DNA of 64,000 nt from NCBI RefSeq assembly GCF_900110455.1, contig NZ_FOIS01000002.1, positions 806,001 to 870,000 of the forward strand, read 5' to 3'. The translations under genes and the position numbers were made by a program. The stretch comes from Natrinema salifodinae (GTDB lineage: Archaea; Halobacteriota; Halobacteria; Halobacteriales; Natrialbaceae). Under the pieces are notes generated by a model. That model was given only the letters and a program-made list of their open reading frames with translations, made no database searches and was not told where the DNA came from. The first letter of the stretch is position 1. Every line of letters begins with the position of its first letter. Positions 47,595-49,622 of this stretch are shown here, one piece after another.

Positions 47595-49577
47595 TCAGTC
47601 GTCGCTCGGTGCCGCGGCACCGCCCTCGCCCGTGCTGACGCCGGTACCGGGGCCGATCTCGATTCCAAGGTCGTCGAGTTTCTCGTCGGGGACGACGCCG
47701 TCGACCCAGCCGCGGTAGTCGTAGTACTCCTCTTTCATCCGCTCGAGCTCGCAGTACTCGCCCTCGGAGGCGCCCTGGCCGGGGATACCGTCCGCGAGGA
47801 AGCGGTCCGGCAGCGAGTCGTCGGTCCCGTCGAACCCGGCGAGGTTGTTGTAGTAGCGCTCCAAGTTGTAGACCCGTTCGCCGGCCTCGAGGAGGTCGTC
47901 CTCGGTGACGTCGCGGCCGGTCATCCCGTTGTACTGGGTGACGTACTCCTCGATGCCCTCAGCGAAGGCGTTGAACTTGCAGATGTCGAAGCTGTCGGAG
48001 ATGGCGTGCAGATCCTGGAACTGGGCGGTGAGCTCGCCCTTGCCCTCCCACTCGTAGGGGTCGACCTTCTCGGGAATGCCCAGAATCTCGGCGGCGGGCG
48101 TGTACCCGCGCAGGTGGCAGGCCCCGCGGTTTGAGGTGGCGTAGCCGATCCCCATGCCCTTCATGCAGCGGGGGTCGTAGGCCGGAATCGTCTGGCCCTT
48201 GACCGCCAGGGAGTTCTCGCGGGCGTCTCGCATCTCCGCGATCCGGTCGGCGCCCTCGGCCAGGAGGTCCGCCAGGTCGTCCTCGCGGTGAGCGATCCGC
48301 TCGATCATGTCGACCATCTCCTCGGAGTCGCCCCAGTCGAGGCCAGCGTGGGACTCTGTCCCACGAGCAGACGGGCTTTGCCCGTCGACATCGTTGAGGT
48401 CGTCGAGTTTGCCCTCCTCGGTCATCTCCATGGCCATCGCCATCATGTTGCCCACTTCGATGGTGTCGACGCCCATGTCGTTACAGCGGTCGATCATCAG
48501 GGCGATGTCGTCGCGGTCGGTGTGGCCGGAGTTCGGGCCGAGCGCGAACGCCGACTCGTACTCGTAGGACTCCGTCCGGACGTTCATCTCCTCGCCCTTG
48601 TGCATCGCCTGAACTTCGACCTCCTTCTTACAGGCGACCGGACAGGAGTGACACGTGGGTTCGTCGACGAGGATGTTCTCGCGGACGTTCTCGCCGGAGA
48701 CCTGCTCGGAGTCGAACTCGTCGCCGGCCCAGCCGTCGTCGCGGGCGTCCCCGGTCGAGGTGTACTTCCCGTTGCGCGTCGGGAGCCCGGACATCTCCTC
48801 GGTGAGGTTCATCAGGACGTTCGTCCCGAACTTCGAGAGCCCGCCCTCGTTGGGCGCGGTGACCTCCGACTCTTGGATGGCCTGCATCGCCTGCTGGTGA
48901 CCCTCCCGGAACGTCTCCGAATCGGCCGGTTTGGGCATCCGCGTGTTCGACTTGACGACGACCGCCTTGAGGTTCTTCGAGCCGGCGACGCAGCCGGTGC
49001 CGCCCCGACCCGAGGCGCGGTCGTCCTCGTTCATGATCGTGGCGTAGCGAACCTGATTCTCGCCACCGGGACCGATCCCCATGATGCTCAGGTTCTTGCC
49101 GTAGGAGCCCTCGACCTCCTCTTCGATCGCGTCGCGGGTTTCGTGGAAGCCCATCCCCCAGAGGTGCGAGGCGTCCCGAAGTTCGACCTCGCCGTCCTCG
49201 ACGACGGCGTAGACCGGTTCGTCCGCCTGGCCCTCGAAGAGTAGGCCGTCGAAGCCGGCCCACTTGAGTCGGGCGCCCGACCAGCCGCCCTGGTGGCTGT
49301 CGGTGACGGTGCCGGTCAGCGGCGATCTCGTACAGACGGCGATCCGGCCGCTCATGGTCACTTGGGTGCCCGACAGCGGGCCGTTCATGAACGCGAGCAG
49401 GTTGTCGGGTCCGAGCGGATCAACGTCCGGTCCCTGTTCGAAGACGTACTTTACCCCCAAGCCGCGCGCACCGATATACTTCTTCGCGTCCTCGTCGTCG
49501 ATCGACTCGTACGCGACCTCCCCGTCCGAGAGATCGATGCGAGCGACCCTATCTTGGAATCCACCGAGTTCGGTCAT
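47595..49577 (-). CDS. aor: aldehyde:ferredoxin oxidoreductase (tungsten AOR family)
   Basis: A 660-aa AOR-family enzyme that oxidises aldehydes to acids with ferredoxin, using tungsten bis-pterin. N-terminal G-A-R-G-L-G-V-K-Y and N-G-P-L-S-G-T bind cofactor. The [4Fe-4S] ligands are Cys 309, 312 and 316 in P-T-C-H-S-C-P-V-A-C and probably Cys 533. G-R-G-G-T-G-C-V-A-G-S-K-N-L-K-A near 190 and M-K-G-M-G-I-G-Y-A-T-S-N-R-G near 472 are family signatures. An odd linker (G-Q-S-P-S-A-R-G-T-E-S-H) near 400-410 is encoded by a paired-hairpin insert. Upstream lies a perfect inverted repeat. It could remove aldehydes made by the neighbouring dehydrogenases. Confidence 0.92.
   Translation of the reverse strand: MTELGGFQDRVARIDLSDGEVAYESIDDEDAKKYIGARGLGVKYVFEQGPDVDPLGPDNLLAFMNGPLSGTQVTMSGRIAVCTRSPLTGTVTDSHQGGWSGARLKWAGFDGLLFEGQADEPVYAVVEDGEVELRDASHLWGMGFHETRDAIEEEVEGSYGKNLSIMGIGPGGENQVRYATIMNEDDRASGRGGTGCVAGSKNLKAVVVKSNTRMPKPADSETFREGHQQAMQAIQESEVTAPNEGGLSKFGTNVLMNLTEEMSGLPTRNGKYTSTGDARDDGWAGDEFDSEQVSGENVRENILVDEPTCHSCPVACKKEVEVQAMHKGEEMNVRTESYEYESAFALGPNSGHTDRDDIALMIDRCNDMGVDTIEVGNMMAMAMEMTEEGKLDDLNDVDGQSPSARGTESHAGLDWGDSEEMVDMIERIAHREDDLADLLAEGADRIAEMRDARENSLAVKGQTIPAYDPRCMKGMGIGYATSNRGACHLRGYTPAAEILGIPEKVDPYEWEGKGELTAQFQDLHAISDSFDICKFNAFAEGIEEYVTQYNGMTGRDVTEDDLLEAGERVYNLERYYNNLAGFDGTDDSLPDRFLADGIPGQGASEGEYCELERMKEEYYDYRGWVDGVVPDEKLDDLGIEIGPGTGVSTGEGGAAAPSDD
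48348..48386. repeat. paired perfect hairpins inside the aor gene
   Basis: Hairpin one has arms GTGGGAC and GTCCCAC with a TCT loop (48348-48364). Hairpin two has arms GACGGGC and GCCCGTC with a TTT loop (48370-48386). Five bases separate them. The insert keeps the aor frame open and encodes a Ser/Gly/Ala-rich loop between two conserved helices. This looks like a small palindromic mobile element that has been tolerated in a coding region. Confidence 0.8.
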
Positions 49578-49600: not shown

Positions 49601-49622
49601 AACGCCTATCGTGTTAGGCGTT
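49601..49622. promoter_or_regulatory. perfect inverted repeat before aor
   Basis: Arms AACGCCTA and TAGGCGTT surround six bases (TCGTGT), 24-45 bases upstream of the aor ATG. The position overlaps the core promoter, so a bound dimer would repress, or the repeat could be recognised by an activator. Confidence 0.6.

Follow-up and report, generated by a model that had tools for sequence, protein, structure and literature searches.

The window, by which we mean the whole 64,000-nucleotide stretch of Natrinema salifodinae DNA analyzed here, contains on its minus strand a gene for a tungsten aldehyde ferredoxin oxidoreductase (AOR). Inside its coding sequence lies a 45-nt insert built of two small hairpins. 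The features of the locus are:

47595..49577, minus strand: host gene, tungsten aldehyde ferredoxin oxidoreductase (AOR), 660 aa, with the Pfam domains AFOR_N (PF02730) and AFOR_C (PF01314).
48387..48389, minus strand: 5′ flanking trinucleotide GTC.
48342..48386, minus strand: double-hairpin insert, 45 nt, in frame, encoding the 15 residues DGQSPSARGTESHAG; delimited by orthologue alignment, by the match to covariance model R1 and by a gap in the structure 9q1t.
48370..48386, minus strand: hairpin 1 (5′ on the coding strand), GACGGGC-AAA-GCCCGTC, 7-bp stem and 3-nt loop.
48366..48369, minus strand: linker, reading TGCT on the coding strand and conserved across the family.
48347..48365, minus strand: hairpin 2, CGTGGGAC-AGA-GTCCCACG, 8-bp stem and 3-nt loop.
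48342..48346, minus strand: 3′ end CTGGC (coding strand), for which copy comparison gives CTGTC in many other copies.

The coding-strand order is GTC, GACGGGC-AAA-GCCCGTC, TGCT, CGTGGGAC-AGA-GTCCCACG, CT and GGC; the forward strand reads CGTGGGAC-TCT-GTCCCACG at 48347-48365 and GACGGGC-TTT-GCCCGTC at 48370-48386. The original prediction had placed two perfect hairpins with 3-base loops in AOR coding DNA, and they are located as claimed. It gave both stems as 7 bp, which is right for the second on the forward strand (48370-48386), while the first has 8 bp from 48347, its 7-bp version starting at 48348. The predicted spacing of five bases belongs to that shorter version and becomes 4 nt with the 8-bp stem. 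Likewise, the predicted extent of 48348-48386 captures the hairpins of a unit that is slightly wider (45 nt at 48342-48386). Just upstream of the AOR start codon, at window positions 49601-49622, we also noted an inverted repeat, AACGCCTA..TAGGCGTT, which could be an operator or promoter feature.

Single hairpins with a stem of at least 7 bp and a 3-nt loop are common, with 23 in the 64-kb window. Adjacent pairs with 3-nt loops occur once, at the AOR site, versus none in five block shuffles. Adjacent pairs with other loop sizes likewise number 1-2 in the same count, and the hairpin pair on its own is therefore not convincing.

A search with the AOR protein in 100 relatives matched 77 genomes, and the 30 best loci, query included, were aligned. 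Orthologue alignment, as proposed with the original prediction, defines the insertion edges; 28 of the 30 genes lack the full insert, which is carried by the query (L001) and L004 only. A third gene, L003, has a short DGQ remnant, GACGGGCAG followed by GGC. Residues shared by every orthologue, the outcome that had been named as marking native sequence, were not found: 27 of the 30 genes have no trace of the insert. The best solved-structure relative, WOR83 of Haloferax volcanii (9q1t), has a gap of exactly 15 residues at this position. A third filled AOR gene, with the insert at the same position, was found by the R1 model in another family (L088 in genome G226). The three filled genes occupy three separate places in the tree built from 31 AOR proteins, a pattern in which recurrent insertion, repeated loss and gene exchange are indistinguishable.

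Within the genome of N. salifodinae, the pattern of hairpin 1 gave no further match with up to 2 mismatches, and that of hairpin 2 gave, at the same tolerance, one further forward match on contig C1 (control columns 1 and 3). A fixed pattern of the whole unit with up to 3 mismatches was found in 11 of 125 genomes of the family, at one place each (reversed-pattern control 0), and these eleven copies, which share one frame, are spread over several different genes. From them, the AOR site included, we built the covariance model R1, together with a mirrored control model, R2. At E<=0.1, R1 matched 99 of the 125 family genomes and R2 matched 16; at E<=1e-3 the numbers, counted from the listed best E-values, are 86 and 0, no R2 match falling below 0.007 and the best reaching 30 bits. 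Across the order, 206 of 392 genomes have R1 matches at E<=1e-3. Among 246 sampled phylum genomes, an unstated share of them from outside the order, 23 have matches at E<=1e-4, and every one of the 23 belongs to the same order. In the window, R1 scores the AOR site, which is one of its own training copies, at 69.9 bits versus 18.9 bits for the second-best site. Judged from this score and from recurrence at unrelated sites in other genomes, both of them sequence comparisons, the AOR unit is beyond chance.

A scan of the sequence collection with a strict pattern returned seven named records, including Natrinema, Natribaculum, Natronococcus, Halopiger, Halovivax and Natronolimnohabitans. The 98 loci collected (70 from the family, 28 from other families) fall into 32 flank clusters. 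The AOR insert matches those in genes for an S9 peptidase, a helicase and an aspartate aminotransferase at 38 of 45 positions. The hairpin pair had been proposed for a search in both genes and spacers of haloarchaeal genomes, and it is dispersed in both. In N. salifodinae itself, decayed copies lie in a phosphoenolpyruvate (PEP) synthase gene (L223) and in a CBS-domain gene (L238). A further own-genome copy (L149, G000:C4:571200-571248) has longer stems, is apparently intergenic and has GTC on both sides. Plasmid searches with the 66-bp element region gave weak matches only, one of which (H5, Natronococcus AD-5) is a TnpB right-end site of the kind described below; phages searched with the L097 copy gave no match, and Rfam at the gathering score gave nothing for seven loci.

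Among 31 representative copies, 98.5% of stem cells pair and 8 of the 15 base pairs change on both sides. Compensatory stem cells number 65, versus 16.2 (sd 3.9) in shuffles, and versions of the unit slid along the alignment pair at 35-44%. The layout comprises stems of 7 and 8 bp, 3-nt loops and tails of TGCY and CTGTC/CTGGC, with both hairpins in the same direction. The trinucleotide GTC stands on the 5′ side in 25/31 copies and on the 3′ side in 18/31. The two flanking trinucleotides are identical in 17/31 (shuffled mean 14.5; p about 0.045). On this weak excess of direct repeats, GTC is either the site that is targeted or a piece of the unit itself, and a three-base target duplication is weakly supported. 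Positions -4 to -1 are C in 23, G in 29, T in 27 and C in 26 of the 31, forming a CGTC tag, although its first base is weak evidence, because C precedes in-phase GTC in 65% of the coding background.

The reading frame was assessed with a GC3-GC2 frame score for the 70 loci of the family (L042-L071 and 40 more, namely 39 next in rank and one own-genome place). Of these, 48 are read in frame +0, 17 in frame -0 and 1 in another frame, and 4 are unclear. The odd-frame locus (L071) and two unclear ones (L133, L147) are TnpB-element right ends, and L066 groups with the -0 copies. The near-tie +0 call for L148 is probably wrong, since this locus groups with CBS-gene copies read in -0. With one representative for each of 20 coding clusters, 11 are sense and 9 antisense, and all are codon-aligned; L086, L096 and L102-L104, to which no coding frame is assigned, were left out of this set. 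Pfam and NCBIfam identify the hosts as prolyl oligopeptidase, PEP synthase, aspartate aminotransferase, O-acetylhomoserine sulfhydrylase, an ATP-dependent helicase (presumably Lhr-like), cobyrinate a,c-diamide synthase, aldehyde dehydrogenase, beta-CASP nuclease and CBS-domain proteins, the host fragments scoring below the NCBIfam cut-offs for whole proteins. Two clusters (L113, L067) are both aldehyde dehydrogenases, and hence their sites may share an origin.

In coding ORFs of N. salifodinae, 74.6% of GTC and 64.6% of GAC lie in codon phase 0. Insertion in phase 0 is thus partly expected, and a GTC target would put most genic insertions on codon boundaries. Codon alignment at 20/20 sites exceeds what this phase bias predicts (about 8e-4, a hand calculation from the ORF figures). 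The excess suggests selection for frame, but R1 was trained on in-frame copies, which favours the finding of in-frame copies. At 18 of the 20 sites the opposite reading gives a less hydrophilic peptide than the one read; the exceptions are CobB, whose opposite reading contains a stop, and one pyruvate dehydrogenase (PDH)-like copy with an in-frame stop. At 19/20 sites the read frame is open. In genes that we take to be pyruvate dehydrogenase E1-like (L045, L053, also L036 and L037; like other host names outside the list above, named from the sequence), the unit brings an in-frame TAG. The two TAG-bearing PDH-like genes look broken, one of them also being frameshifted downstream.

Filled and empty sites were compared between species. 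For nine host genes, joined into one query and searched against 13 genomes, filled and empty orthologues differ by 15 codons in matched length; the prolyl oligopeptidase family also has 51-nt versions, and PEP synthase differs by 14 codons from one empty orthologue. The empty orthologues are mostly short by exactly 45 nt, one non-coding site included. This site is the clearest empty/filled case. It is the right end of IS1341-type TnpB elements, where the unit occupies the following positions:

1501-1545 in L071, L133 and L147.
601-645 in L106 and L107.

Filled copies have an additional 45 nt between CCGTCGTC (or a near variant) and GACGCC. Empty right ends are present on plasmids of Natrinema pellirubrum, Haloarcula marina, Halorubrum salinarum and Haloprofundus, the junction in Natrinema pellirubrum being CCGTCGTC|GACGCC. 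The units in the right end adjoin sub-threshold Rfam matches (e-value mode) to sot0042 and HgcC. At exactly this point, Salinirubellus and Halomicrobium have a pair of hairpins that differs from the unit, and the architecture may hence matter more than the sequence. In L243 and L244 the double hairpin at this point has 9-bp stems and 3-nt loops.

Y1 (IS200-type) transposases, present in 91/125 family genomes, were considered as a linked mobilizing enzyme and rejected: 29 of 30 Y1 loci lack a convincing R1 match within about 1.5 kb on either side. The sole match of note (L153) scores 29.6 and 23.5 bits, the noise lying at about 20 bits. Several R1-rich genomes, e.g. G115-G117 and G004, have no PF01797 match at E<=1e-10.

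We found no haloarchaeal description of such a unit in open-licence PMC full text, in agreement with the original prediction; the available parts of PMC12306157 and PMC2841640 contain nothing on such elements. The resemblance to Rickettsia palindromic elements (RPEs) noted there stands as an analogy, and we do not claim family membership. RPEs are described in PMC2229807 as palindromic repeats that measure 105-146 bp, form long stem-loops and carry terminal inverted repeats; they are tolerated in frame in many unrelated conserved protein genes and are also present in RNA genes and spacers. The haloarchaeal unit is similarly in frame in unrelated protein genes, with 20 codon-aligned coding sites and empty orthologues, but it is archaeal, GTC-bounded, 45 nt long (51 in some copies) and made of two separate small hairpins.

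The CGTC-tagged REPs of Di Nocera et al. (2013), among which are RPE-4 and RPE-6 of R. conorii, are described in PMC3733652 from five bacterial phyla. CGTC or TGTC marks the 5′ foot of their small hairpins, which have stems of 8-9 bp and loops of 4-5 nt; they have CCA tails, intragenic copies and no linked transposase, and are mostly head-head dimers. The same text covers GTAG and CGTC REPs and has the word "archaea" in its reference list only. Our unit shares with them the CGTC-like 5′ tag and the absence of a linked transposase (for which Y1 transposases only were considered), but has stems of 7 and 8 bp, 3-nt loops, tails of TGCY and CTGTC/CTGGC, and a same-direction rather than a CCA head-head pair. 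REPINs and GTAG REPs are likewise non-autonomous small-hairpin pairs with conserved tetranucleotides; theirs are a GTAG tag and a linked RAYT, whereas the haloarchaeal unit has a CGTC-like tag and no Y1 linkage (30 loci). The unit shares its behaviour with RPEs and its tag with CGTC REPs, but does not match them in length, loops or dimer form.

Palindromic repeats with coding potential reportedly exist in the archaeon Methanocaldococcus jannaschii. Archaeal repeats fused into protein genes (Suyama et al., 2005, as cited in the Delihas review, PMC2229807) are, by that description, comparable to the present unit in being archaeal and inside protein genes. In Haloquadratum walsbyi, according to the available part of PMC3119063, PATEs are small, transposase-free elements with palindromes, IS605-type ends and no target duplication, and SMRs measure about 80-110 bp with terminal inverted repeats. 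Both resemble our unit as small haloarchaeal repeats without a transposase, but in-frame protein insertion is not seen for them in that text, and in comparison with SMRs the unit is shorter and without an outer inverted repeat.

These data establish dispersal, close similarity between copies at unrelated sites, covariation of the stems, orthologues both with and without the unit, and codon alignment in both orientations. Based on them, we consider it very likely that the AOR unit belongs to a family of non-autonomous palindromic mobile elements dispersed among haloarchaea. On the best reading, this family would behave, by analogy, in the manner of Rickettsia palindromic elements and CGTC-tagged REPs, while its architecture of two hairpins bounded by GTC is new. 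The unit consists of hairpin 1 (7 bp, 3-nt loop), TGCY, hairpin 2 (8 bp, 3-nt loop) and CT, a 42-nt core between GTC-like trinucleotides whose insertion usually adds 45 nt. The frame is kept because the length gained is divisible by three and because GTC and GAC usually lie at codon boundaries in haloarchaeal genes. Proteins would tolerate the insert because the peptide is short, hydrophilic and rich in Ser, Gly and Asp, and it would probably be translated as a flexible surface loop. Copies may spread by a transposition-like event at GTC/CGTC. We favour single-stranded DNA hairpins recognized in trans, perhaps by an IS200/IS605-type or other enzyme, as an unproven route, and gene-breaking copies would be removed by selection.

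Several other explanations were weighed against a mobile element family of this kind. It is rather unlikely that the units are terminal-only PATEs, i.e. fused near-terminal palindromes of a core-deleted IS605-type transposon that are still mobilized by IS605, like the 52-bp elements of Haloquadratum. Such 52-bp terminal-only versions are known there besides PATEs, and the combination in PATEs of a short targeting sequence with no terminal inverted repeats (as far as described in PMC3119063) fits the GTC/CGTC 5′ flank. However, core-deleted PATEs retain one copy of a palindrome, and here two different hairpins are present. The Y1 transposase loci without a nearby R1 match also speak against this origin, and in TnpB loci the unit is an insertion within the right end, the element's own terminal hairpin (CTTTAG region, beside TCAA) being different. 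Unlikelier still is that hairpin chains arise by replication slippage, template switching and gene conversion with no dedicated enzyme, single units in genes being by-products. Genome G230, with 23 linked pairs of 3-nt-loop hairpins in 400 kb versus 1-2 in shuffles, and the tandem copies in L105 and L101 fit such a process, but a GTC boundary preference is hard to obtain from it, as are clean single 45-nt insertions where the empty orthologue has no such hairpin.

An action at the RNA level, with the units serving as regulatory hairpins, as an excised intron-like piece or as a stretch bypassed by the ribosome, seems improbable to us. Mitochondrial byps are stretches bypassed by the ribosome, and both the strong, RNA-like covariation and the in-frame TAG in two PDH-like copies would suit a process of this kind. 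DNA hairpins predict covariation equally, though, and the frame-keeping length, the open read frame at all but one coding site and the unrelated host genes argue against it. Bypass of an in-frame stop in particular is disfavoured by the frameshift in one of the two PDH-like genes with TAG, the other being otherwise open. Very improbable is a native AOR protein loop lost in other lineages: filled AOR genes in three parts of the tree, and the L003 remnant as a sign that losses happen, are compatible with it, but similar sequence occurs in unrelated proteins and in non-coding DNA.

Beyond this, we tentatively hypothesize, without regarding it as the probable outcome, a third, archaeal superfamily of tagged protein-coding palindromes, a two-hairpin and frame-keeping element whose GTC target would put most genic insertions on codon boundaries and which would be read in the orientation that yields a hydrophilic linker; if true, the unit has become widespread in the proteomes of haloarchaea and supplies them with new loops. 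The known cases of selfish palindromes that persist inside genes for proteins come chiefly from Rickettsia and a small number of further bacteria. In free-living archaea, which include genetic models such as Haloferax volcanii, a widespread family would open the movement of these elements, and their possible creation of new protein loops, to experiment. The unit also accounts for many insertions of 15 residues that will be encountered in haloarchaeal enzymes during annotation and structure prediction.

Two side observations concern tandem arrangements. In L101, tandem hairpin units lie in a long open frame that reads as a repeat protein. Genome G230 (L200-L219) is full of small-hairpin chains with TGNCA-like linkers and several stem types, and these give the impression of tandem multiplication of units in some lineages.
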